Under the pieces are notes generated by a model. That model saw nothing but the letters and a program-made list of their open reading frames with translations, was not told where the DNA came from and searched no databases. Made by a program: the position numbers and the translations under genes. Shown here in pieces: positions 9,777 through 25,125 of a DNA stretch of 43,960 bases. Numbering within the stretch: position 1 is the stretch's first letter; every line of letters begins with the position of its first letter. Source of the stretch: Chitinophagaceae bacterium (GTDB lineage: Bacteria > Bacteroidota > Bacteroidia > Chitinophagales > Chitinophagaceae); the NCBI GenBank assembly GCA_027486695.1, contig JAIXOS010000343.1, positions 1 to 43,960 on the forward strand. The letters are read 5' to 3'.

Positions 9777-10472
9777 CTACTCCTCTGTTTCTTGTATAAA
9801 TGATTGAAGCAAAGCGTAATTGGTGATTTTAATATTTTTACCCACCAATTCAATCACATTGGTATTGGCTAAGTCGTTGATAATTCTGAAAACAGTTTCG
9901 TAGGTAGTTCCTGCAAACGAAGCCAAATCTTGTCGGCTTAAAACAATATCTATACAGCCGTCACTACTTGTACCAAATTTTTCGTGCAGCGAGAGCAAGC
10001 ATTGTGCTATGCGGCCTTTAACCGTCATGTGCGCCATATTGCGCATTTTACGTTCGCTTTCTTGCAATTCATCGGCAAAAAACATGAGTAGATTGATGGT
10101 AAATTGGTGGTTTACTTTTAGTGTGCTTTCAAAAAAAGCCAAATCAATAAAGCAAGCGTCTACATTTTCTAATGCGGTACCTGATACCGGATAAAAGCCA
10201 TCGCCACCAAGACCGCGGTGACCCACAATAGCACCTTTGTTAGCAATACGCACGATGAGTTCTTTTTCTGGTCCCCATTGTTTGTGCACTTTTACTTTGC
10301 CTTCATTTATAAAGTAAACGCCTTCTACTTTTTCGCCTTCTTTAAACAGCAATTCCCCTTTTTTGTACGTGTATGTTTTTTTGTGTGCAGCAATAGCAGG
10401 CAGCCATTCGGGCAAACTTTGTTTACATAAAAAACAACTTTGTAAATCGCAACCGTTTTTATTTTTTTTCAT
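9777..10472 (-). CDS. Crp/Fnr family transcriptional regulator with FNR-like cysteines
   Basis: cNMP-binding fold (KKGELLFKEGEKVEGVYFINEGKVKV), C-terminal HTH (SRQDLASFAGTTYETVFRIINDL), N-terminal C-x4-C-x2-C plus Cys107. Confidence 0.92.
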   Translation of the reverse strand: MKKNKNGCDLQSCFLCKQSLPEWLPAIAAHKKTYTYKKGELLFKEGEKVEGVYFINEGKVKVHKQWGPEKELIVRIANKGAIVGHRGLGGDGFYPVSGTALENVDACFIDLAFFESTLKVNHQFTINLLMFFADELQESERKMRNMAHMTVKGRIAQCLLSLHEKFGTSSDGCIDIVLSRQDLASFAGTTYETVFRIINDLANTNVIELVGKNIKITNYALLQSFIQETEE

Positions 10473-10949: not shown

Positions 10950-12536
10950 ATGTATCAAAATCATTTTGGCAAAGCAACTCGATTTGCTTTTACTGCTTTG
11001 GGGCTGTTGGCTGTTGGCTACTCGCATGCGCAAATATCGTTAACAGGTCAGCTAAGAACACGTACGGAAGTTAGAAATGGATTGGGTAACCTGCAAACAA
11101 AGGGCGCACAATCGGCTGTTTTTACATCGCAACGTACCCGAATTAATTTTGGTTATAAATGGGATAGGCTCACTTTTGGAGCTGCCCTGCAAGATGTTAG
11201 GGTATGGGGGCAAGACGCATCAAGCATTACCAATAATGATGGTGCACGACTGATGTTGCACGAGGGATGGGCCGACCTTACTTTGGCTAATAAGGCCGAT
11301 ACCACTATCGCTTTTAAATGGATAGATCAACTGTCGTTAAAAGTGGGCCGGCAAGAGTTGGTGTACGACGATGCAAGATTAATAGGCAATTTAGATTGGT
11401 TACAACAGGCACGTCGCCACGATATGGCTTTGTTAAAAGCGATGCACCACGGATGGCAAATTGAGGCTGGTTATGCCTTTAATCAAAATACTGATGCCTT
11501 TGGTGTAGCTAGTACAGCATATGCACCGGGTAATGTGCCGGCATATGTAAAAAACAGTATTGGTGTTTTGGTGCCGGTGGCAGCAGGGTTTGTGCCGCTA
11601 GTAAATGCCGCAGGTAATAGTACGTCTAACGGAAATCCATCATACACCAACCCGCCAAGTACCAATGGTGCCAACCAGGATTATAAATCGTTTACTACTG
11701 CATACATTAGCCGCAAGTTTAACCAAACAAAAGTTGCACTTTTATTTTTCAACGATAATTTTGGCAAATCGCACCTCGATTCTATTAGTGTAGGTGGAGG
11801 TATGCTTTATGGCAAGCGCTATGCCGCAGCAAGTGTCGCCGATACGCGCAACTATAGCGGTTATAATAGCCGATTTACTTATGGTGGTATGATTACACAT
11901 ACTATTGGTAATGCATCGGGCTTTGGGAAAATAGCTTTGCAAGGGGCCTACTACCAACAAAGTGGTAAAGATAGAGATGGCAAAAATTTAAACGCTTTTC
12001 ATCTTAACCTTCAAGCTACCTATCAAAAAGGAAAATTTAGTATTACACCGGGTATAGATATTTTGTCGGGCAATGATAGCTCACTAACCAACACTTCTGC
12101 CAACACCAATCGCTTTGACCCATTGTATGGCACGCCGCATAAGTTTTGGGGTTATATGGATTATTTTTATGTGGGTACCGGATCGCCAACAGGTGGGTTA
12201 TCAGACCCTTATTTTAAAGTAAAATACACCGGCAATATGCTGAGTATTGGTGCAGATTACCACTACTTTTCTACCCACAAAGCTATGAAAGGCACCGATG
12301 GCAAATATCTAGGCAGCGAAATAGATATTCAATTAAACTACAACATGAACAAGTTTACCAATATAGAATTGGGTTATTCGCTCATGTTTGCTAGCAACAA
12401 TATGCCAATTGCCAAAGCCCAAGTAACCAGTTTGGCTACCGCAGCTAACTACAACAAAACAGGCACTTGGTTTTATGCCATGCTCAAGTTTACACCTGAT
12501 TTCTTTTATGCAAAACCTGTTGCTATTAAACAGTAA
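10950..12536 (+). CDS. Alginate-export (AlgE)-type outer-membrane porin, putative nitrate porin
   Basis: ISLTGQLRTRTEVRNG, RTRINFGYKWDRLTFGAALQDVRVWGQ, KVGRQELVYDDARLIGNLDW; first gene of the nitrate cluster. Confidence 0.82.
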   Translation: MYQNHFGKATRFAFTALGLLAVGYSHAQISLTGQLRTRTEVRNGLGNLQTKGAQSAVFTSQRTRINFGYKWDRLTFGAALQDVRVWGQDASSITNNDGARLMLHEGWADLTLANKADTTIAFKWIDQLSLKVGRQELVYDDARLIGNLDWLQQARRHDMALLKAMHHGWQIEAGYAFNQNTDAFGVASTAYAPGNVPAYVKNSIGVLVPVAAGFVPLVNAAGNSTSNGNPSYTNPPSTNGANQDYKSFTTAYISRKFNQTKVALLFFNDNFGKSHLDSISVGGGMLYGKRYAAASVADTRNYSGYNSRFTYGGMITHTIGNASGFGKIALQGAYYQQSGKDRDGKNLNAFHLNLQATYQKGKFSITPGIDILSGNDSSLTNTSANTNRFDPLYGTPHKFWGYMDYFYVGTGSPTGGLSDPYFKVKYTGNMLSIGADYHYFSTHKAMKGTDGKYLGSEIDIQLNYNMNKFTNIELGYSLMFASNNMPIAKAQVTSLATAANYNKTGTWFYAMLKFTPDFFYAKPVAIKQ

Positions 12537-12629
12537 AAATGTTACTGTTAGTTGATGTTTTGTTTGTGAGTAAATGCACTCTATGTGTTGAAATATTTAT
12601 TATTAATACAATTTATAAAATTGATAATT

Positions 12630-13853
12630 ATGAAAAAAATTAAAATCATTTTTCAAACAATACTTTTGGTTATTGTTAGTTGCCAAATACTGTTGGCAAA
12701 TACAGCATCGCCTACACCTCCTGCCAAACGAGTAATCAAATTGGGCTTCATAGCGCTTACCGATTGCGCACCGTTGGTAATGGCAAAAGAATTGGGCCTT
12801 TTTACCAAGTACGGAGTAGAAGTTCAGTTAACCAAAGAGGCTTCATGGGCTGTTATCAGAGACAAAATTTTGAACGGCGAATTGGATGGAGCGCATTGCT
12901 TGTTTTCTATGCCATTTTCGGTATATACAGGCATCGGTGGTAAGGCCGGCAGCGAAATGCGCATTGCCATGGTTTTGAACAACAATGGCCAAGGTATTAC
13001 CTTGTCAAAAGATTTTTGTGGGCTTGTTGGTTTTAAAGAAATGAAGAAAGTGGCAGCTGCTATTAAAAATGTACAAAGCCGTAAAGAAGTCACTTTTGCA
13101 CAAACATTTCCGGGTGGCACGCACGACATATGGTTGCGCAATTGGTTAGCTGCCTGCGGCGTAAATCAAAAGTCGGTTGGCATTATTACCATTCCACCAC
13201 CCCAAATGGTAGCCAATATGAAAGTAGACAATATGGAAGGCTACTGTGTGGGCGAACCTTGGAACGGTGTGGCGGCCCAACAAAATATTGGCTTTACACA
13301 TATGGCTAGTCAGGATATTTGGAAAAACCATCCCGAAAAAGCCCTTGTGGTAAACAAAGCCTTTGCCGATGGCAACCGCGAAGATTTGAAAAATGTGATG
13401 AAAGCCGTTTTAGAAGCGTGTAAATGGCTCGACGATATGGGCAATCGCAAAAAAGCAGCTTCTATACTTACCCGCCCCAACTATGTAAATGCTGCATTAA
13501 CAGTAATTGAAGCCCGTTTATTGGGTAGCAACGACTTAGGCTGCGAGCTAGGCGTACAAAAGTACAAAGATGATTACATGACTTTTTTCCGTGGTGGCGA
13601 TGTTAATAGCCCTCGCCTAGCGCATGGTATGTGGTTTTTGGCGCAATATGTTCGTTTTGGATATTTAAGTACACCACCCGCTTACAAACAAATAGCCGAA
13701 AAACTCATTTTGGACGATTTATACGCCGAAGTAGCCAAAAGTATGAATATTGTCGTGCCCGCCGATGCCTTAAAACCCTTTAAAACCAATATTGAACCAA
13801 CTGTTTTCGATCCTGCCAATCCTGCGGCTTACTTAAGTGCTGCAAAAAAATAA
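12630..13853 (+). CDS. nrtA: ABC transporter substrate-binding protein, NrtA-like (nitrate)
   Basis: KLGFIALTDCAPLVMAKELGLFTKYGVEVQLTKEASWAVIRDKI; YCVGEPWNGVA. Confidence 0.92.
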   Translation: MKKIKIIFQTILLVIVSCQILLANTASPTPPAKRVIKLGFIALTDCAPLVMAKELGLFTKYGVEVQLTKEASWAVIRDKILNGELDGAHCLFSMPFSVYTGIGGKAGSEMRIAMVLNNNGQGITLSKDFCGLVGFKEMKKVAAAIKNVQSRKEVTFAQTFPGGTHDIWLRNWLAACGVNQKSVGIITIPPPQMVANMKVDNMEGYCVGEPWNGVAAQQNIGFTHMASQDIWKNHPEKALVVNKAFADGNREDLKNVMKAVLEACKWLDDMGNRKKAASILTRPNYVNAALTVIEARLLGSNDLGCELGVQKYKDDYMTFFRGGDVNSPRLAHGMWFLAQYVRFGYLSTPPAYKQIAEKLILDDLYAEVAKSMNIVVPADALKPFKTNIEPTVFDPANPAAYLSAAKK

Positions 13854-13888
13854 ATTCCTTGTTCATTTCTGTTTAAAATATCTGTGTT

Positions 13889-14674
13889 ATGAAAAAAATC
13901 ATCTCGCTTCAAACCCTTTACGCCATGCTGTACTTTGTACTAGGTATGGGCTTATTGTTAGCCGCTTGGGCTTGGGTTTCCCACATTACCAAAAACGAAG
14001 TGCCATCACCAATCCTTACATGGAAGGTTTTTCAAGAGGTTATGCAAAGTCCTTTTCAAAATGATGCTGATATAAAGGGCATTGGCACCAAATTATTAAG
14101 TTCTTTAGGAAGGGTAGGTATTGGGTTTGGGTTAGGTAGCCTTTTGGCAGTGCCTTTGGGTTTGCTATTGGGTAGCAATATTCGGTTGATGAATATTTTC
14201 AATCCCATTATTCAAATTTTAAAACCCGTATCGCCATTGGCTTGGTTCCCACTTGGGTTAGCCATATTTAAAGATTCGCCCAAAGCCAGCATTTTCATGA
14301 TATTTATTTGTTGCATTTGGCCAACGCTGATTAATACGGCAATGGGTGCTGCAAGTGTGCCGCCCGACCACAAAAATGTAAGTAAGGCTTTTGCTTTTTC
14401 ACCACTCAAATACATTACCAAAATCTTGTTACCTTACACATTGCCGCACATCATCACCGGTTTGCGACTATCTATCGGAGTGGCTTGGATGGTAATTGTT
14501 GCGGGCGAAATGCTTAGCGGTGGTATGGGTTTGGGTTATTTTGTTTGGGAAGAAGGATTTAATGGGGGTAGTATCGAAAAAATATTGGTAGCCATCTTAA
14601 TTATTGGTTCAGTCGGCCTATTGCTCGACAAAGCCTTTATTGCGCTCGAAAAAAAATTATCCTACGCTCAATAA
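13889..14674 (+). CDS. nrtB: Nitrate ABC transporter permease
   Basis: BPD-type permease with SPLAWFPLGLAIF and GVAWMVIVAGEML motifs; adjacent to nrtA. Confidence 0.93.
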   Translation: MKKIISLQTLYAMLYFVLGMGLLLAAWAWVSHITKNEVPSPILTWKVFQEVMQSPFQNDADIKGIGTKLLSSLGRVGIGFGLGSLLAVPLGLLLGSNIRLMNIFNPIIQILKPVSPLAWFPLGLAIFKDSPKASIFMIFICCIWPTLINTAMGAASVPPDHKNVSKAFAFSPLKYITKILLPYTLPHIITGLRLSIGVAWMVIVAGEMLSGGMGLGYFVWEEGFNGGSIEKILVAILIIGSVGLLLDKAFIALEKKLSYAQ

Positions 14675-14740
14675 CACTTCAGTAGTCGGTGTACGATTAT
14701 TGAGTGCCAACTTTTATTTCATCTTTTCAATTTCAATTGT

Positions 14741-15637
14741 ATGGAAACAATGATAGCTGCACCAACAACGGTGTTAAATACAGTCGGTTTAGATACTGCT
14801 TTGCCTAAATCTTTAGTTGCCAAAACTAACCAAGCGGCAACCGCTGCGCCATTGAGCATTGATATTCAAAATGTTACGGTATCTTTTAAAACCAATGAAG
14901 GGGTTTATACGGCTGTTAAAAACATATCGTTGCAGGTAAAAAAGGGCGAAATCATCTCGCTAATTGGCCACTCAGGCTGTGGCAAGTCTACCTTAATGAA
15001 TACCATCAGTGGCATGGTGAGCCCGTCAGAAGGTACTGTATTGGCCAATCAAAAAAAGGTTACCGGTCCCGGCCCCGACAGAGGCATTGTTTTTCAAAAC
15101 TATTCACTACTGCCTTGGCTCACCGTGTACCAAAATATTTTTGTGGCGGTGGATTCAGTAATGAAAAACAAATCTAAAGCCGATAAAATTGCCCTTACCG
15201 AAAACGGCCTGAAAATGGTAAACCTATGGCCACACAAAGACAAATTGCCTGGTCAATTATCGGGCGGTATGAAACAGCGTGTTGCTATTGCACGTGCTTT
15301 TTCTATCAATCCCAGCATTTTATTGCTCGACGAACCGTTTGGAGCGCTCGATGCACTCACCAAAAGTGCTATGCACATCGAATTGCTAAAACTATGGAAC
15401 CTCGATCACCGCGAAAAAACCATTATCCTCGTTACGCACGATATTGAAGAAGCCATCTTTTTAAGCGATCGCGTGGTGGTGCTCAACAACGGTCCTGCTG
15501 CAACTATTAAAGAAATTGTGGATGTGCCACTAGCACGCCCTCGTAACAAAAAAGACATTGTTCACGACCCCGAATACATGCGCATTCACGACAAGCTTCT
15601 TGGGTTACTGATGCATAAATTGTCCATCAACGATTAA
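14741..15637 (+). CDS. Nitrate ABC transporter ATP-binding protein (NrtC/NrtD type)
   Basis: Walker A GHSGCGKST, signature LSGGMKQR, Walker B LLLDEPFGALD. Confidence 0.93.
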   Translation: METMIAAPTTVLNTVGLDTALPKSLVAKTNQAATAAPLSIDIQNVTVSFKTNEGVYTAVKNISLQVKKGEIISLIGHSGCGKSTLMNTISGMVSPSEGTVLANQKKVTGPGPDRGIVFQNYSLLPWLTVYQNIFVAVDSVMKNKSKADKIALTENGLKMVNLWPHKDKLPGQLSGGMKQRVAIARAFSINPSILLLDEPFGALDALTKSAMHIELLKLWNLDHREKTIILVTHDIEEAIFLSDRVVVLNNGPAATIKEIVDVPLARPRNKKDIVHDPEYMRIHDKLLGLLMHKLSIND

Positions 15638-15743
15638 TCAATTGATTGTTTTCGCATCCATGCCCTTCACATTCTTTTTTGGGGGCTAGGAACTGCAACC
15701 AACCTTATTCAACAATAGTTCGGGCTGTTTGGCAGTAGTCCTC

Positions 15744-15771
15744 ACCCCAATCGCCCGATGGTTGTTGGGGT
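15744..15771. other. GC-rich intergenic segment with hairpin ACCCCAA/TTGGGGT
   Basis: 7-bp perfect stem within a GC-rich island between nrtC and narK. Confidence 0.4.
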
Positions 15772-15928
15772 TGTGGGCTACTTGCCGTCCATCCCGCAGC
15801 CGCCAATCTATCGCACATCTATCGGCAATACATATGCATAAACAGTGCTTATACAAATGATATTTTTCAGATAAAATTAATTTTTATACATTTAATTAGA
15901 AACAAAAAGTATAATTTTTGGTCAAAAC

Positions 15929-15974
15929 GATTAAAATAATATTGCCTGTGCAATGTTTTTTAATTATTTTAATC
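15929..15974. promoter_or_regulatory. Long bulged hairpin / inverted repeat upstream of narK
   Basis: GATTAAAATAAT...ATTATTTTAATC (12 bp) stacked on ATTGC-CTGT-GCAAT with an 8-nt bulge. Confidence 0.55.
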
Positions 15975-16015
15975 TTATTTTTGATAATATACGTTGTATT
16001 TTGTAATTCTTATTT

Positions 16016-17317
16016 ATGAATAAAGCGCAACCACTTACCCAGCTTAATATACTATCGCTCAAGGGCATACAAATGAAAACGTTCCACATTACTTGGCTTA
16101 CGTTCTTTTTTTGCTTTTTTGCTTGGTTTGGAATTGCGCCGTTAATGCCTTTGGTTAAAAAACAATTGAGCCTTACTAAGGACCAATTGGGAAATATTCA
16201 AATTGCATCTGTTTCTGCCACAATTATAGCGCGCTTACTAATAGGGCGTTGGATAGACAAATGGGGCCCGCGATTGGTGTATACTTGGCTGTTGATAGTA
16301 TGTGCTATACCCGTTATGTGTATTGGCCTTAGCAATAGCTACCAATCCTTTTTATTGTTTCGGCTTGCTATTGGCGTTATTGGTGCGTCGTTTGTAATTA
16401 CCCAATTCCATACTTCGGTCATGTTTGCATCTTCTATTAAAGGAACTGCTAATGCTACAGCAGGCGGTTTTGGTAATGCCGGAGGAGGTGCTACCAATTT
16501 TTTTATGCCACTTATTGCCGCGTCAATGGTGGGTGCCGGTTGGGTAACTACCGAAAATAGTTGGCGTTTGGCAATGGTGGTACCGGGTGTGTTGTTACTC
16601 ATCATGGCAGCACTCTATTATAATTACACAACCGATTTGCCTCAAGGCAATTTTAGTGAAAACCCACAACAACAAAAAACCAATAAAAATACTTTTTTGC
16701 TAGCCGCAAAAGACTACCGCACTTGGATATTGGCAATTGCCTATGGAGCTTGTTTTGGGGTAGAAATTACGGTCGACAATTTTGCTGCTATTTATTTTAA
16801 AGACAAATACGGTGCTTCGTTGGTAATGGCGGGCATTGTGGCAAGCATCTTTGGTTGGATTAATTTGTTTGCTCGACCGCTAGGAGGTATTGTGGCCGAT
16901 AAAATTGGTAAAAAATATGGTTTTGATGGCAAAACAATGCTGCTTTCCATATTACTGTTGTTAGAAGGGGCCGGCATTGTGTGGTTTGCACAAGCTGGTC
17001 AACTCAGTATGGCTATCGTCATGATGTTTTTCTTTGGTCTTAGTTTAAAAATGGCCAATGGCGCAACTTATAGCTTGGTGCCTTTTGTAAATACCGAAGC
17101 CGTTGGCAGTGTGGCCGGCATTGTTGGAGCCGGAGGAAATATTGGCGCAATGCTGATTGGTTTTTTATTTAAATACAAGGCCGTTAAGGTGTCGGACGAT
17201 ATGATTGATTATTCCAACGCATTTACCACGCTCGGTTATATTGTATTGGTCTTTGGCGCGGTGGTACTCGTATTTCGCACCGTTACGCGTGGTCAAAGCA
17301 GTCAGCTAAACGGATAA
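16016..17317 (+). CDS. narK: NarK/NasA-type MFS nitrate/nitrite transporter
   Basis: WLTFFFCFFAWFGIAPLMP, GGFGNAGGGATNFFMP, GNIGAMLIGF nitrate-signature-like motifs. Confidence 0.93.
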   Translation: MNKAQPLTQLNILSLKGIQMKTFHITWLTFFFCFFAWFGIAPLMPLVKKQLSLTKDQLGNIQIASVSATIIARLLIGRWIDKWGPRLVYTWLLIVCAIPVMCIGLSNSYQSFLLFRLAIGVIGASFVITQFHTSVMFASSIKGTANATAGGFGNAGGGATNFFMPLIAASMVGAGWVTTENSWRLAMVVPGVLLLIMAALYYNYTTDLPQGNFSENPQQQKTNKNTFLLAAKDYRTWILAIAYGACFGVEITVDNFAAIYFKDKYGASLVMAGIVASIFGWINLFARPLGGIVADKIGKKYGFDGKTMLLSILLLLEGAGIVWFAQAGQLSMAIVMMFFFGLSLKMANGATYSLVPFVNTEAVGSVAGIVGAGGNIGAMLIGFLFKYKAVKVSDDMIDYSNAFTTLGYIVLVFGAVVLVFRTVTRGQSSQLNG

Positions 17318-17366: not shown

Positions 17367-20300
17367 ATGCACACATCCAAAAAAATACCCGACGCACTTA
17401 CCACTACCTGCTGTTATTGTGGCGTAGGCTGTGGTATGGTGGTAACAAAAGATAAAAAAGGAAACCTTACGGTAAGTGGCGATGCCGATCATCCCGTAAA
17501 TAAGGGAATGCTATGCAGCAAAGGAATGAACCTGCACTATACGGCTAACGACAAATCCGATCGGTTGCTGTATCCACAAATGCGCTACAACAAACATTTA
17601 CCACTTGAGCGGGTTTCGTGGGAAGACGCTTTGCACCGTACAGCGGCAGTATTCAAAACATTTATCCAAAAATATGGCCCTAACTCGGTTGCTTTTTACG
17701 TTTCAGGACAATGCTTAACGGAAGAATACTATGTAATTAACAAATTAATTAAAGGATTTATTGGCAGCAACAACATAGATACCAATAGCCGCTTGTGTAT
17801 GAGTAGTGCGGTAGTGGGCTACAAAATGAGCTTGGGCGAAGATAGCGTACCCGTTTGCTACGACGATATAGAACTAGCGGATTGCTTTTTTGTTACCGGA
17901 GCTAACCCGGCTTGGTGTCATCCTATTTTGTGGCGCCGGGTAGAAGCACACAAAGCGGCCAATCCCAACGTTAAAATCATTGTAGCCGACCCCCGACAAA
18001 CCGATACTTGTAGCATAGCCGATGTGCATTTGCAAATAAATCCCGGTACCGATATCACACTCAATCACGCTATTGGTCGCCTACTCATTGAAAATGGCGA
18101 TATTGATGTAGATTTCATACAACACCATAGTCAAGGCTTTGACGCATATAAACAAATGGTATTTGCTACTACTTTGCAAGAGGCGGCAGCTATTTGCGGT
18201 GTGGATGCCGCCGACATTCAGCTTGCAGCTAGCTATATTGGCAATGCGAAAGGATTTTTAACCATGTGGACAATGGGATTGAATCAAAGTGCAATTGGCG
18301 TAAACAAAAATTTGTCGCTCATCAATCTCAATTTGATTACCGGACATATTGGTAAGCCGGGTTCCGGACCTTTTTCACTAACCGGCCAACCCAATGCTAT
18401 GGGCGGTCGTGAAGTAGGCGGATTAAGTAATTTATTGCCGGCACACCGCAATTTAAACAATGCCCAACACCGGCAAGAAGTAGCCGATTTTTGGGGAGGC
18501 ACGACACTTTCCGACACTCCGGGACTTACCGCTACCGAAATGTTTGAAGCGCTTGAAGCAGGCACTTTAAAAGCCATTTGGATTATTTGCACCAATCCAC
18601 TTGTTAGCTTACCCGATGTACGACAAGCCGAACGGGCTTTGCAAAAAGCCAAATTTGTGGTAGTGCAAGAAGTGAGTAGTAAACCGGAAACCCTTCAATT
18701 TGCCGATGTGATATTGCCTGCTGCTACATGGGCCGAAAAAGAAGGCACCATGACCAATAGCGAAAGACGTATATCGTATCTGCATCAAATAACCCCTCCT
18801 CCGGGCGAAGCATTGCCCGATACCGACATCATTTGTCGGTTTGCACGTGTGATGGGATATAAAGGATTTGATTTTGCCAATGCCGCCGCCGTTTATGCTG
18901 AGCATGTACAACTAACAGCAGGAACCAATATGGATATGTCGGGGTTAAACTACGATATACTCAAACAAAAAAAAACCGTTCAATGGCCTTATCCGGCTAA
19001 CGAAATCCATAATGGCACACCACGCCTATTTACCAATAAAGTATTTTATACACCTAGCACCAAAGCTATTATCCACGCCGTTCCCGACACCATTACAAGC
19101 GAAAAGCCCTCCCCGGAATTTCCGCTAATACTCACCACAGGCCGCATTCGCGACCAATGGCATACCATGAGCCGTACCGGCAAAGTAAATAAGCTAAACC
19201 AACATACACCCACAGCATTTGTAGAAATACACCCGCAAAATGCACGACAATTACAAATTGCAGATAACGATTTGGTGGTGGTACAATCTTCAAGAGGCGA
19301 GGTGCGGGTACGAGCCAAAATAACCACGCAAATAAAAAAAGGGGTGGTTTTTTTACCCATGCATTGGGGCAAAATTTTAAACAACGATTTACATAGAACC
19401 AACAATATTACCCACTCATTATTAGATCCTATTTCAAAAGAACCCGATTTCAAGTTTTGTGCTGTTAGGGTACACAAATACGAAGCCCCCAAACAACGTA
19501 TCGTTATCATTGGAGCAGGAGCAGGGGCTTTTGGTTTTGTAAAAAGCTATCGCGAAACAAATACCACAAACGAAATAACCATATTCAGCAAAGAAAATTT
19601 TCCGTTTTACAACCGAGTAATGCTTCCCGATTACATTAGCGGGGCACAGCAATGGCAACAATTGGTGAAAATGGACGATAGTGAAGAGGATAAATACAAT
19701 ATTGTATTGCACAGGGGTGTAAGCATTGAAAAAATTGATCGCGCGGAAAAATGGGTGATGGATAGTAATGGCAATATTACTTATTACGATGTGTTGATTA
19801 TGGCAACGGGGAGCCGAGCCTTTGTACCACCGGGCGTACCCAACCTTCCAGGTATTTTTACGATGCGTAGTAGAACCGATGCCGACAATTTTATAGCACA
19901 TACTCCGGCGAATGCGCATGTAGTAATTGTGGGGGGAGGTTTATTGGGTTTAGAAATGGCCGCTAGTTTGTGCGAAGTAGGGGTACGTATCACCATCATA
20001 CAACGTATTTCTCGCTTTCTGGATCGACAGTTAGACCCCCTTGGCAGTCAATTGCTACATGAAGAAATGACCGAAAGACAAGGTTGCGATGTGTATTACG
20101 ACGACGAAGTGCAACTGTATTACGGACACGAAAAACTAACCGGCGTACGCTTAAAAAGTGGCCGGCAAATAGACTGCGATGCGCTCATTTTGGCCATCGG
20201 TACACAACCCAATATAGAATTGGCTAAAGCCGCAGGCTTGCAATGTCAACGGGGTGTTTTGGTAAATGAACGTTTGCAAACCAACGACCCCAACATTTAT

Positions 20301-20918
20301 GCAATTGGCGAAATTGCTGAATTCAAAGGTTTTTTATATGGTATTACGGCTGCCGCAGAACAACAAGCAGCTATTGTAGCCCAATATTTACAAGGCGATA
20401 TAGCTGCCTATTATAAAGGCAGTTTATTGATGAACATCATTAAAATTCATGGCTTCGATTTGTGTAGCATTGGCATTCCTGAATGCCCTAACCACACCGA
20501 TTATGAAGAAATTATTTTTATCGATCGGGCAAAAAGTTATTATAAAAAATGCATCATTCATCAAGACAAACTAGTGGGCGCTATTTTAATTGGCGATAAA
20601 ACAGAGTTTCAAGAATTTAAAGAACTGATTGCCAACAAAATAGAATTGAGCGATAAACGCCTACAACTATTGCGCAGTGGCAAAACGGCAACCCCCGTTT
20701 TGGGCAAATTGGTATGTAGTTGTAACAATGTGGGTAGTATCAATTTGCAACAAGCGGTAGAAAATGGTTGTGAAACCCTACAACAGTTGTGTAGCAAAAC
20801 CGGTGCAGGTACCGGATGTGGTAGCTGCCGCCCCGAAGTACAAAAAATACTTGAAAAAACCCTTTTTCAACAGCACAATGCTACAGCTACAGATAAGGTA
20901 GCAGAAGCTATTCTGTAA
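17367..20918 (+). CDS. Fused nitrate reductase: molybdopterin/4Fe-4S domain + NirB-like FAD/NAD(P) domain + BFD-like [2Fe-2S] domain
   Basis: N-term CCYCGVGCG...GMLCSKG (Mo-bisMGD oxidoreductase); middle IVIIGAGAGAFGFVKSYRETN and VVIVGGGLLGLEMAASL (FAD/NAD); C-term CSCNN...TGAGTGCGSCRPEV (BFD). Confidence 0.93.
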   Translation: MHTSKKIPDALTTTCCYCGVGCGMVVTKDKKGNLTVSGDADHPVNKGMLCSKGMNLHYTANDKSDRLLYPQMRYNKHLPLERVSWEDALHRTAAVFKTFIQKYGPNSVAFYVSGQCLTEEYYVINKLIKGFIGSNNIDTNSRLCMSSAVVGYKMSLGEDSVPVCYDDIELADCFFVTGANPAWCHPILWRRVEAHKAANPNVKIIVADPRQTDTCSIADVHLQINPGTDITLNHAIGRLLIENGDIDVDFIQHHSQGFDAYKQMVFATTLQEAAAICGVDAADIQLAASYIGNAKGFLTMWTMGLNQSAIGVNKNLSLINLNLITGHIGKPGSGPFSLTGQPNAMGGREVGGLSNLLPAHRNLNNAQHRQEVADFWGGTTLSDTPGLTATEMFEALEAGTLKAIWIICTNPLVSLPDVRQAERALQKAKFVVVQEVSSKPETLQFADVILPAATWAEKEGTMTNSERRISYLHQITPPPGEALPDTDIICRFARVMGYKGFDFANAAAVYAEHVQLTAGTNMDMSGLNYDILKQKKTVQWPYPANEIHNGTPRLFTNKVFYTPSTKAIIHAVPDTITSEKPSPEFPLILTTGRIRDQWHTMSRTGKVNKLNQHTPTAFVEIHPQNARQLQIADNDLVVVQSSRGEVRVRAKITTQIKKGVVFLPMHWGKILNNDLHRTNNITHSLLDPISKEPDFKFCAVRVHKYEAPKQRIVIIGAGAGAFGFVKSYRETNTTNEITIFSKENFPFYNRVMLPDYISGAQQWQQLVKMDDSEEDKYNIVLHRGVSIEKIDRAEKWVMDSNGNITYYDVLIMATGSRAFVPPGVPNLPGIFTMRSRTDADNFIAHTPANAHVVIVGGGLLGLEMAASLCEVGVRITIIQRISRFLDRQLDPLGSQLLHEEMTERQGCDVYYDDEVQLYYGHEKLTGVRLKSGRQIDCDALILAIGTQPNIELAKAAGLQCQRGVLVNERLQTNDPNIYAIGEIAEFKGFLYGITAAAEQQAAIVAQYLQGDIAAYYKGSLLMNIIKIHGFDLCSIGIPECPNHTDYEEIIFIDRAKSYYKKCIIHQDKLVGAILIGDKTEFQEFKELIANKIELSDKRLQLLRSGKTATPVLGKLVCSCNNVGSINLQQAVENGCETLQQLCSKTGAGTGCGSCRPEVQKILEKTLFQQHNATATDKVAEAIL

Positions 20919-20934
20919 ACCCACACCACTAGCA

Positions 20935-22440
20935 ATGATTAATAAAAAAATATATACCATTGTTGTTAATTTGCCGGGGGGTATTGTGGCTACAGGTTAC
21001 TTGCTTACCGCCCTACAAGCACTAGCAAAAGCAGGTATTCAGGAAGTACAATTAGGTACAAGACAACAGCTTTTTGTAAAAGTAAATGCACAACAACTTA
21101 CCCTGCTCGAAACCGAATTGCGTAGTCACTACATTGCTTTTGAATTAATAGAAAAAAGCAGTCCCAATATAGTAAGCAGTTATGTAAACGAAGGGGTATT
21201 TGAAAACAGCAATTGGTTAAGCGAAGGTGTGTACAAAGATGTATTGAATTTATTTGATTTTACCCCTCAATTAAAAATCAATTTGGTAGATAATACCCAA
21301 ACATTTGTTCCCTATTTTACTGGAAACCTTAATTTCATAGCTTCTAAAATAAACAATTATTGGTATTTGTATTTGCGATACCCACAAACTAACCAATTGT
21401 ATTTATGGCCGGTACTTATTTACACCACCGATATTCCTTTGCTAAGCAAACAGATAGAGCCTACGCTGCAAAAATTGGGTATAACAACCAAAATTCTTCC
21501 CGCCGATTGGGGCACCTTAGTGTATAAACAAGTAAACTTAGTAGCAAGTTTTATTACCCATCCTATAACAGAAGCTTTACATGTACCCACGTTTATGATG
21601 CCGTACTATGAAGGTTTTAACCGATATGGCAACAAATCGTGGTTGGGCATATACAGGCGCGATGAAGTGTTTTCGGTAGCATTCTTATTAGATGTGTGTA
21701 GTGTATGTATACAAACCAAAATTGGACAGGTATACACCACCCCTTGGAAATCGATAGTGGTAAAGGGAATTGAAAATGCAGACCGTAAATTGTGGGATTA
21801 TGTATTGAGCAAACACAGAATTAACGTTCGGCATGCGGCTAATGAACTCAATTGGCAAATTGAAGACATGTGTTCTGATGGCCTTAATCTAAAACGCTTT
21901 TTAATCAGGCAGTTTGATAAAGAGGATGTTCGCACTTTTGGTTTGTGCTTTGCTGTAAAAACCATGCCCAATAGCAGTATTTGGGGATCGGTAATTATTG
22001 AAAAAAAGAATACCGACCACCCAGCACAACGCAAATCGGTAGATAAATACGATATTTGGTACACACAAGATTTTAATCCCAATTCAAAAGAATATGTATT
22101 GTTTAGAAGCGATGTGGCGAAAGAAAATATTGCTACCTATTTGATATCGCTATGTAAATATTTTTACGAATTAAAAAATGACGAGGAAGGTATTTTGCAC
22201 CGCATTTACCGGGAAGATACCCCCACAGCCGCCAACACATCAAAAGAACCGCCAACTCACTTTGTGCACCAATGCGAACACTGCTTTACCATTTATGATT
22301 GCGATTTGGGCGATATAGATAACGGCATACCACCCGGAACTGATTTCAGCCAATTACCTGAGCACTACGCGTGTAATACATGCGAAGCTCCCAAACAAGA
22401 TTTTGTTATGGTTATTAAAAAAACAGCCGTTGTACTGTAA
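20935..22440 (+). CDS. Nitrite/sulfite-reductase half-domain-like protein with C-terminal rubredoxin domain
   Basis: LPGGIVATGYLLTALQALAKAGIQEVQLGTRQQLFVKV and GQVYTTPWKSIVVKGI resemble NIR_SIR ferredoxin-like half-domains; C-term CEHC...DLGDIDNGIPPGTDFSQLPEHYACNTCEAPKQDF is rubredoxin. Confidence 0.8.
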   Translation: MINKKIYTIVVNLPGGIVATGYLLTALQALAKAGIQEVQLGTRQQLFVKVNAQQLTLLETELRSHYIAFELIEKSSPNIVSSYVNEGVFENSNWLSEGVYKDVLNLFDFTPQLKINLVDNTQTFVPYFTGNLNFIASKINNYWYLYLRYPQTNQLYLWPVLIYTTDIPLLSKQIEPTLQKLGITTKILPADWGTLVYKQVNLVASFITHPITEALHVPTFMMPYYEGFNRYGNKSWLGIYRRDEVFSVAFLLDVCSVCIQTKIGQVYTTPWKSIVVKGIENADRKLWDYVLSKHRINVRHAANELNWQIEDMCSDGLNLKRFLIRQFDKEDVRTFGLCFAVKTMPNSSIWGSVIIEKKNTDHPAQRKSVDKYDIWYTQDFNPNSKEYVLFRSDVAKENIATYLISLCKYFYELKNDEEGILHRIYREDTPTAANTSKEPPTHFVHQCEHCFTIYDCDLGDIDNGIPPGTDFSQLPEHYACNTCEAPKQDFVMVIKKTAVVL

Positions 22441-22787: not shown

Positions 22788-23744
22788 ATGAAACCACTCA
22801 ACGATATTTATGGCAGACAGTTTAAAACACTGCGGGTGAGCCTACTCAATAGGTGTAACCTCAGTTGTGTGTACTGCACAATGGGTGAAGATGTAGCAAA
22901 GCCCGAAAAAGAGGAGCCAACAGCTTTAACAGCATCGGAATTATTAACTATCATCACCAATTTACATACGCTACTATCTTTTTCTACCATTCGGCTTACC
23001 GGTGGTGAGCCATTATTGTATCACGACTTAATTCCAATTATTGAAGGCTTAAACAAGAACGGTCTTCATAATATTAAATTGACCACCAATGGGTTTTTAT
23101 TAGAACGAATGGCTGTAGACTTAGTAGCTGCGGGTTTAAAAAGCATCAATGTATCGCTCGATGCAATAGATGAAAACATGTTTGCGCTGATGAGTAAACG
23201 AGGCAATATTCAGCGCATATTAAATGGTATAGATGCGGCTATCGATGCAGGATTGCACGTAAAACTGAATGCTGTAATCATGAAGGGTATCAATGAAAGC
23301 CAAGTACTACCGCTGTTGCAATTTGCCTTTGACCGCAATATTAGTATCCGGTTTTTGGAAGTGATGTCGATGGGGCATTTACACCAACAACCCAAAAAAT
23401 ATTTGGTAACTCAACAAGAGCTTTTACACATCATTGCGCAGCAATACCAATTTGAACCTTGCCATCGGCAGCATGCAGCAACTGCCAACTATTGGCAAAC
23501 CACTACGGGGCATCAATTTGGTATTATCGCAAACGAAAGCGCCCCTTTTTGTGGCGATTGCGATAGATTGCGGCTTGATAGCAAAGGCCAAATTTATGGT
23601 TGTTTAAGCAGTAACCACCCTATACCAATAGCAAACGTGCAACAACCCGAACAATTGCAAGCGTGCTTACAAGAAGCCATGCAGCAAAAACAAACCTTAC
23701 AGTTTACCGGCAGTAATTTAAGCATGTTAGATATTGGCGGATAA
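22788..23744 (+). CDS. moaA: GTP 3',8-cyclase (molybdenum cofactor biosynthesis)
   Basis: Radical SAM CNLSCVYC, C-terminal CGDCDRLRLDSKGQIYGC, terminal GG. Confidence 0.96.
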   Translation: MKPLNDIYGRQFKTLRVSLLNRCNLSCVYCTMGEDVAKPEKEEPTALTASELLTIITNLHTLLSFSTIRLTGGEPLLYHDLIPIIEGLNKNGLHNIKLTTNGFLLERMAVDLVAAGLKSINVSLDAIDENMFALMSKRGNIQRILNGIDAAIDAGLHVKLNAVIMKGINESQVLPLLQFAFDRNISIRFLEVMSMGHLHQQPKKYLVTQQELLHIIAQQYQFEPCHRQHAATANYWQTTTGHQFGIIANESAPFCGDCDRLRLDSKGQIYGCLSSNHPIPIANVQQPEQLQACLQEAMQQKQTLQFTGSNLSMLDIGG

Positions 23745-23763
23745 ACCAACCAATTTGTACCTT

Positions 23764-24000
23764 ATGATGACCATAGAAACTTTTGCTATATTAAAAGACT
23801 ATTTTGAACCCAAGTTTCAAATCAACGAAACGCCGAACAATATTCATCAGTTGCAGGAATTGCTTTTAAAGCTAAATCCACAAGCTGCAACATTACTAAG
23901 TATGAGCCGTTTTGCCGTGAACGACACATTTATAGATCAACATTATCAATTACAAGCCAATGACGTTATTAGCATCATCCCCCCAAGCAGTGGAGGATAA
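23764..24000 (+). CDS. moaD: Molybdopterin synthase small subunit
   Basis: Short ubiquitin-like protein ending NDVISIIPPSSGG; between moaA and moaE. Confidence 0.9.
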   Translation: MMTIETFAILKDYFEPKFQINETPNNIHQLQELLLKLNPQAATLLSMSRFAVNDTFIDQHYQLQANDVISIIPPSSGG

Positions 24001-24466
24001 ACTGCCCCATATTTCGGCCAATACCTTAAACGTGCCCGAACTACTTGGTCAAGCGCATCACCCACAAGCGGGTGCTATAGTGCTGTTTAGTGGCGAAGTG
24101 CGCGATTCAAGTCATCAAAAACAAGTAGCTTATTTGGAATATGAAGCCCAAGCAAGCATGGCGAATAAGATGATTGCCCAAATTTTGGACGAAGCAATCA
24201 CCAAATGGTCACTTTCGTTTGCCGTTGCACAACATCGAATTGGTAAGGTTGCTGTTTGCGAAAGTGCCGTGGTGGTAATTACAGCTTCGCCACACAGAAA
24301 GGAAGCCTACGCCGCCAATAGGTTTATTATTGACAAAATAAAACACGAAGTGCCTATTTGGAAATGCGAATATTTTACCGACGGCACCAAAGAATGGGGA
24401 GGGAATTGCAATTGCCATACCATTACAGGCAACAATAGAGAACATGTATATGAATTTAACGACTAA
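23960..24466 (+). CDS. moaE: Molybdopterin synthase catalytic subunit
   Basis: GAIVLFSGEVRD, YEAQASMANKMI, HRKEAYAANRFIIDKIKHEVPIWKCEYFTDG. Confidence 0.93.
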   Translation: MTLLASSPQAVEDKLPHISANTLNVPELLGQAHHPQAGAIVLFSGEVRDSSHQKQVAYLEYEAQASMANKMIAQILDEAITKWSLSFAVAQHRIGKVAVCESAVVVITASPHRKEAYAANRFIIDKIKHEVPIWKCEYFTDGTKEWGGNCNCHTITGNNREHVYEFND

Positions 24467-24510
24467 GTCAATTGAATATCTGTTGCTTATAACTGGTTAA
24501 TATTACATAC

Positions 24511-25125
24511 ATGACGCATACTTTACCAATCATTGCCGTAGTATTGTGTGGTGGAAAAAGCACAAGAATGGGTACCGACAAGGGGCTTTTACCCATACAG
24601 TCACATGCCACTTGGGCACAGTTTGTTGGTGAAAAAGCCGCTTTAGCAAACGTAGAAGTGGTTTACTCAATTAGTCAATCACAAATAAGTACTTATAGCA
24701 AACATATTGCTCAACAAATGCTTATTACCGACGATGATAACCTATTGGTGAAAGGGCCATTAAAAGGTTTGTTATCGGTACACCAAGCATATCCTGCGCA
24801 TCATTTACTGTTGTTATCGTGCGATATGCTACATATTGACGTCGCTGTTTTGCAGCAATTGGTACAGCACTGCGTAGAAAATCCAACAGCGCATTTTTGG
24901 GCGTTTACAACCGGCTCGTTTGCGCAACCTTTTTGTGCTATTTATTCTGCCTTTGGTTTACAGCAGCAACTACAACAACAATCATCCATAACCAACTTTA
25001 GTTTGCAAAGTTTGCTCAAACAGGGAACAACCGCTTTTATAGCCACTACTAACGAACAGGTATTTTTTAGTTACAATACCCTAGACTCAAATACATTGTT
25101 GCAAACACAACCCACAACCCGATAA
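24511..25125 (+). CDS. mobA: Molybdenum cofactor guanylyltransferase
   Basis: VVLCGGKSTRMGTDKGLL and LLLSCDML. Confidence 0.92.
   Translation: MTHTLPIIAVVLCGGKSTRMGTDKGLLPIQSHATWAQFVGEKAALANVEVVYSISQSQISTYSKHIAQQMLITDDDNLLVKGPLKGLLSVHQAYPAHHLLLLSCDMLHIDVAVLQQLVQHCVENPTAHFWAFTTGSFAQPFCAIYSAFGLQQQLQQQSSITNFSLQSLLKQGTTAFIATTNEQVFFSYNTLDSNTLLQTQPTTR

Follow-up and report, generated by a model that had tools for sequence, protein, structure and literature searches.

Why should a nitrate assimilation operon carry, directly after its nitrate reductase gene, a protein that resembles nitrite and sulfite reductases (NiR/SiR), lacks the cysteines of their iron-sulfur cluster and ends in a rubredoxin? 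The question is raised by a window of 43,960 nucleotides, the whole stretch of DNA analysed here, from a Chitinophagaceae bacterium. The gene lies on the + strand (20935–22440) and encodes, from an ATG start, a 501-aa protein that was defined by its ORF and translation and by a 109-member family of aligned relatives. The coordinates confirm the claim of a first-pass annotation that it begins 16 bp past a nitrate reductase fusion, which ends at position 20918.

This partner (17367–20918, + strand) is an 1183-aa fusion in which Pfam and NCBIfam recognize a NasC-type nitrate reductase of the Mo-bisPGD kind joined to an NADH/FAD reductase, a Rubredoxin_C domain and a BFD [2Fe-2S] domain; the FAD part matches the NADH:flavorubredoxin reductase NorW (1.7e-53). 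The transporter and cofactor genes around the pair are also on the + strand. A NarK-type nitrate/nitrite transporter (16016–17317) was assigned with TIGR00886 (314 bits, cut-off 311.7), and nitrate ABC transporter genes (12585–15637; NrtA-like 12585–13853, NrtB-like 13889–14674, NrtC-like 14741–15637) through their Pfam ABC domains and as recurrent neighbours, with a score of 203 bits, slightly under the cut-off, against the ntrB model. Molybdenum cofactor genes follow (22788–25125): moaA (22788–23744) was identified by Pfam, and a small moaD-like (23734–24000), a moaE-like (23960–24466) and a mobA-like gene (24511–25125) by position, sequence and recurrence. No RNA element was detected at the locus at Rfam cut-offs.

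A Pfam scan of the 501-aa protein returned two convincing domains and nothing convincing beyond them. The first is a NIR_SIR ferredoxin-like half-domain at residues 5–62 (20947–21120; PF03460, 26.6 bits, cut-off 24), which is matched in all 29 members of a first alignment at E ≤ 10, with a best value of 1e-17. The other is a C-terminal rubredoxin at residues 445–490 (22267–22404; PF00301, 51.4 bits), intact as had been claimed (CEHC...CNTC; C447, C450, C480 and C483); Pfam, the cysteine columns of the alignment and Foldseek (about 1 Å over 52 columns against known rubredoxins) all point to a CxxC...CxxC iron site in a rubredoxin fold. Between the two, a first large alpha/beta domain (about residues 78–222; 21166–21600) was delimited by hhalign against NirA and CysI, an AlphaFold model and column counts; N78, Q122 and N133 are invariant in it and K114 and N116 nearly so over the 109 members. 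The second half-domain of the earlier claim, GQVYTTPWKSIVVKGI (about residues 234–295; 21634–21819), is sub-threshold in Pfam and was recognized with hhalign and the model: it pairs with the second SiR half-domain by profile–profile comparison, is placed by HMMER in the same register in a weak alignment with SiRHP 388–419, and carries a TPWK motif with an invariant K272. A second large domain (about residues 296–415; 21820–22179) was placed by hhalign and column counts.

The AlphaFold model, built with 75 sequences, has a pLDDT of 90.1 and predicts a complete NirA/SiR fold plus a rubredoxin. Foldseek ranked Mycobacterium tuberculosis NirA (1zj8) first, with an E-value of 5.8e-17, followed by E. 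coli SiRHP and plant NiR, with TM-scores of about 0.55–0.63 of the query at 10–14% identity. When the core profile was compared by hhalign to an alignment of the NirA and CysI proteins from the sampled genomes, the two paired over 383 columns (residues 6–414) with Prob 92.9, rising to Prob 96.7 in global mode; both hhalign and Foldseek thus recover two ferredoxin-like half-domains and two large domains. HMMER with the core profile against the PDB reached SiRHP only at E 1, so the case for full-length homology is made by profile–profile and fold comparison. The 501-aa protein descends from the NirA/sulfite reductase fold. In NCBIfam, the family cores come nearest to the models for CobG, NADPH sulfite reductase and NirA. 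CobG (precorrin-3B synthase, TIGR02435) is the commonest of these matches, albeit a weak one (14 of 33 cores, best 5.6e-6), and the 501-aa protein itself does not match it at E 1. CobG is a NiR/SiR relative whose substrate is a tetrapyrrole and which, according to a work cited in PMC7242693 (its reference 76), holds an Fe-S centre and a mononuclear iron; unlike CobG, the gene studied here has no cobalamin context.

The annotation had also remarked that the Cys-x5-Cys...Cys-x3-Cys set for the [4Fe-4S] cluster was missing, and this is borne out across the family. With the threshold relaxed to E 10, PF01077 (the NIR_SIR 4Fe-4S domain) still matched none of the 29 members. The second large domain, whose counterpart in NirA/SiR carries the four cluster cysteines, has no conserved cysteine at these positions; N297, R299, H300, E304, K320 and T334 are conserved instead. 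In the profile alignment, cluster positions three and four have no cysteine, and C313 alone lies near the second, being a cysteine in 47 of 109 members. In nine of the 109, the entire core holds at most three cysteines, which makes a four-cysteine cluster impossible there. The alignments show that the 501-aa protein has lost the [4Fe-4S] ligands of NirA and CysI. The C255-S-V-C258 pair (21697–21708), located with the columns and the model, sits on the first helix (residues 248–260) of the second half-domain, off the cluster position. We rejected it as half of a cluster or as a rubredoxin-like site, since C255 is variable (Cys in 101 of 109 members and Ala, Gly or Ser in 8, versus 108 of 109 with Cys for C258), both residues share one helix and the core has no conserved second pair.

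The substrate site has changed as well. Four basic residues, two Arg and two Lys, bind sulfite in enzymes of the superfamily (R355, R423, K460 and K462 in Fsr; PMC10229431). The equivalent positions here are V10, P77, Q112 and K114, that is, one in four is kept. The position of SiRHP R83 is V10 in the 501-aa protein and Lys or Arg in 80 of 109 members; at that of R153, 84 members have Pro and no member has Arg; the first active-site Lys is Q112 here and mixed across the family, while the second is kept as K114 in 105 of 109. R43 and Q44 are invariant and align in the HMMER register to R117 and Q118 of E. coli SiRHP, whose T115 and Q121 positions are altered. We take these SiRHP residues to be siroheme- or substrate-binding, and place them by sequence profiles, with no superposed coordinates, using HMMER for half-domain 1 and hhalign elsewhere. 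The anion-binding site is thus largely eroded, and a pocket may have been retained in spite of this. Compared to NirA (PDB 1zj8, 2akj), the family shares the order and fold of half-domains and large domains, a TRQ-type motif in half-domain 1 and a place in a nitrate assimilation operon, but lacks the cluster cysteines and any PF01077 match, has an active-site Arg replaced and has added a rubredoxin. From the CysI sulfite reductase hemoprotein (1aop), it has kept the fold (TM about 0.6) and the equivalents of R117 and Q118, but the cluster has gone, as has part of the sulfite site.

At least 584 GTDB genome stretches encode a relative of the 501-aa protein. In a single sample of 396 Bacteroidota genomes, from which all counts of NasC, NirB and family members are taken, 29 genomes including the source encode a homologue that spans most or all of the 501-aa protein, the other 28 copies being 33–51% identical to it. 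Seventeen residues are invariant in the 109 members (G16, R43, Q44, N78, W94, Q122, N133, E226, G227, W236, G238, Y240, R242, K272, E304, K320 and T334), and the four rubredoxin cysteines are kept in 108. The size and conservation of the family rule out a lone degenerate pseudogene or an assembly accident. The one member without the rubredoxin cysteines comes from a genome (G126) in which neither NasC nor NirB was found; this rubredoxin-less homologue lies near a contig edge (L008:267–1556, G126:C4) and looks like a decaying remnant. The neighbourhoods described below are the best-scoring 80 of the at least 584 stretches, and not a random draw. Niastella, Segetibacter, Hymenobacter, Pontibacter, Spirosoma, Chitinophaga, Pedobacter and Mucilaginibacter are represented among them, and all are Bacteroidota by title, save one metagenome-assembled genome labelled Williamsia sp., an actinobacterial genus (L091). 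Its copy is 49% identical, inside the Bacteroidota range, and the contig is probably misbinned. We found no description of the rubredoxin-tailed protein in the open-licence literature; it represents a widespread, hitherto undescribed family of Bacteroidota nitrate operons.

The gene is in tight operon linkage with NasC. In 18 neighbourhoods, wherever the contig extends far enough, the NasC fusion precedes the gene immediately or almost so. Of the best 80 GTDB loci, 79 contain NasC; in 71 it is the gene just before the rubredoxin-tailed one, and the two often overlap by 4 bases. Where it is not immediate, a small ORF intervenes that looks spurious in several cases. The exception is Pinibacter (L086), where about 4 kb separate NasC from a NirB on the same contig and the rubredoxin-tailed gene is away from NasC. 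The gene also occurs on four plasmids, and each of the four plasmids with the NasC fusion has it next to the fusion; the order is nirD, narK, nasC, rubredoxin-tailed gene, cobA in Hymenobacter and nirB, cobA, porin gene, narK, nasC, rubredoxin-tailed gene in Spirosoma. In one locus, a Pfam-confirmed PF09655 protein (Nitr_red_assoc, the cyanobacterial NarM family) is encoded between nasC and the rubredoxin-tailed gene (L036:10795–11298), and the 172-aa intervening ORFs of two others (L074 and L085) resemble it. No rubredoxin-tailed member matches PF09655, which is a separate protein. A role as a substitute for NarM is not supported, as NarM is near-absent from genomes both with and without the gene and coexists with it where present.

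Which nitrite reductase serves these pathways? The annotation saw no NirBD or NirA; this stands for the window, as its contig (C438) has no PF01077 domain, and fails for the genome. A search of the latter for a further nitrite reductase and a siroheme synthase located NIR_SIR genes on contigs C281 and C332 and a siroheme SUMT gene on C234. C332 encodes a canonical NirB of 837 aa, with an FAD reductase, two BFD domains, NIR_SIR_ferr and NIR_SIR, followed by NirD; the protein on C281 is CysI-like and separate from the one studied here. With NirBD on another contig, the notion of a stand-in in a genome lacking a nitrite reductase was abandoned, and the 501-aa protein is probably not the cell's main nitrite reductase. 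That it could nevertheless be the pathway's enzyme with a divergent cofactor site, as had been suggested, is highly improbable: its NiR/SiR fold and its position by NasC would suit such a role, but the genome has canonical NirBD, 28 of the 29 sampled carriers including the source have NirB, and the cluster cysteines and one active-site Arg are gone. We note that nirBD of the source genome (L059:931–5293 and 13209–16101) share a 21-kb contig with what appear by sequence to be urease genes, apart from the nas operon.

A full or near-full length NasC fusion occurs in 33 of the 396 genomes and full-length NirB in 28, and all 28 genomes with both NirB and NasC carry the rubredoxin-tailed gene. Five genomes (G219, G050, G008, G155 and G179) have the NasC fusion and neither NirB nor the rubredoxin-tailed gene; they encode a canonical NirA of about 590–600 aa near NasC, so that the sampled NasC operons with NirA lack the rubredoxin-tailed protein, a comparison in which lineage and pathway type are confounded, since the five come from other families of the phylum. 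These five also indicate that a NasC of this type has no inherent need for the rubredoxin-tailed protein; the NasC scanned from one of the genomes without the gene has an identical domain layout. The Rubredoxin_C domain, being present in a NasC fusion from a partner-less genome, was rejected as a signature of the partnership. The pattern suggests two forms of NasC-fusion operon in the phylum, one with NirBD and the rubredoxin-tailed protein, the other with NirA and without it. The NasC neighbourhoods of genomes without the gene (L145–L149) show this second form, with a canonical NirA near NasC and usually NarK. L145 also has, between NirA and NasC, before the latter, genes that are flavodoxin-like and FNR-like by their sequence, and L146–L148 have ORFs of similar size at the same place.

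The explanation that we favour, with about half of our confidence, assigns the protein to Bacteroidota nitrate assimilation as a dedicated redox accessory of the NasC fusion and NirBD. It fits the operon, the profile, the retention of the rubredoxin and the rate of evolution: mean identity across genomes is 39% for the rubredoxin-tailed protein versus 62% for NasC and 64% for NirB, and is below both in 27 of 27 genomes, as is expected of an accessory protein. The rubredoxin is its one clear redox centre. It would be reduced by the NorW-like NADH/FAD module of the adjacent NasC, an NADH–FAD–rubredoxin transfer made plausible by the NorW match and the Rubredoxin_C domain of the fusion, while the core would dock to the reductase or receive the electron; the protein might in this way help electron supply or dispose of a reactive intermediate of the pathway (nitrite, NO). 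As to the partner, gene order points to NasC and the absence from NasC–NirA operons to NirBD, and the donor or acceptor of the rubredoxin could also lie outside the operon. Of the annotation's suggestions, those of an electron carrier to the fused reductase and of a non-catalytic paralogue are both retained; gene order links the gene with NasC, and the profile links it to the same degree with NirBD.

There is a precedent for such an accessory. In Bradyrhizobium, the nitrate reductase operon NasC–Flp–Bjgb likewise holds accessory redox proteins, with Flp proposed as electron donor to NasC and to an NO-removing haem protein (PMC4724949); that accessory is a haemoglobin and not of the NiR fold. 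Flavorubredoxin NorV, which is fed by the NorW reductase, and rubredoxin-Hcp also have a rubredoxin fused to a nitrogen oxide-handling protein, but their catalytic cores are unrelated to the NiR/SiR-fold core.

Against this reading stand the five NasC-fusion genomes that manage without the protein and the 17 invariant residues, many of them polar, which resemble a ligand site or an active site more closely than a scaffold for docking alone. The core could alternatively be that of a tetrapyrrole enzyme without a cluster, binding siroheme or a related tetrapyrrole, with the rubredoxin replacing [4Fe-4S] as one-electron donor; the reduction of nitrite, NO or hydroxylamine would then be a side reaction or a safeguard. 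We regard this as possible, if rather doubtful. The whole NiR/SiR fold, the invariant R43 and Q44 at SiRHP R117 and Q118, the kept K114 and the invariant or near-invariant H300, N78, Q122, N133, K272 and E304 are in line with it, as are the siroheme methyltransferase gene cobA adjoining the gene in Hymenobacter and SUMT in the source genome. It is at odds with the R153 position never being Arg, the altered T115 and Q121 positions, the presence of NirB in every sampled genome with an intact-looking copy and an evolution that is fast compared to NasC and NirB.

A third reading, in our estimate unlikely, would make the protein a maturation or cofactor-delivery factor, for instance for siroheme insertion into NirB or for NasC assembly, in which the fold binds the cofactor and the rubredoxin provides redox control. 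The presence of the gene in all genomes with both NirB and NasC, the prominence of CobG, a precorrin-binding relative, among the NCBIfam matches, and the occurrence of PF09655 in just 1 of 34 genomes speak for it. However, gene order tracks NasC and not NirB, NirBD of other phyla functions without a rubredoxin-tailed protein, and we know of no assembly factor that ends in such a rubredoxin.

Whether as redox accessory or otherwise, the protein, from a family of this size, accompanies the nitrate reductase almost invariably in the neighbourhoods examined, and offers a natural test of whether a NiR/SiR fold can function, or is reused, without its iron-sulfur cluster. RefSeq names it after its last tenth (both plasmids that are annotated at the match call the product just 'rubredoxin'), so that metabolic reconstructions of a major phylum miss the gene. 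Two further genes of the window recur in related loci. An outer-membrane porin of the Alginate_exp family (10950–12536), found in 51 of the 80 loci, lies ahead of the nitrate transporter genes and may serve these operons as their nitrate porin, and a Crp-family regulator (9777–10472), encoded on the strand opposite to the operon, is a candidate nitrate or NO regulator.
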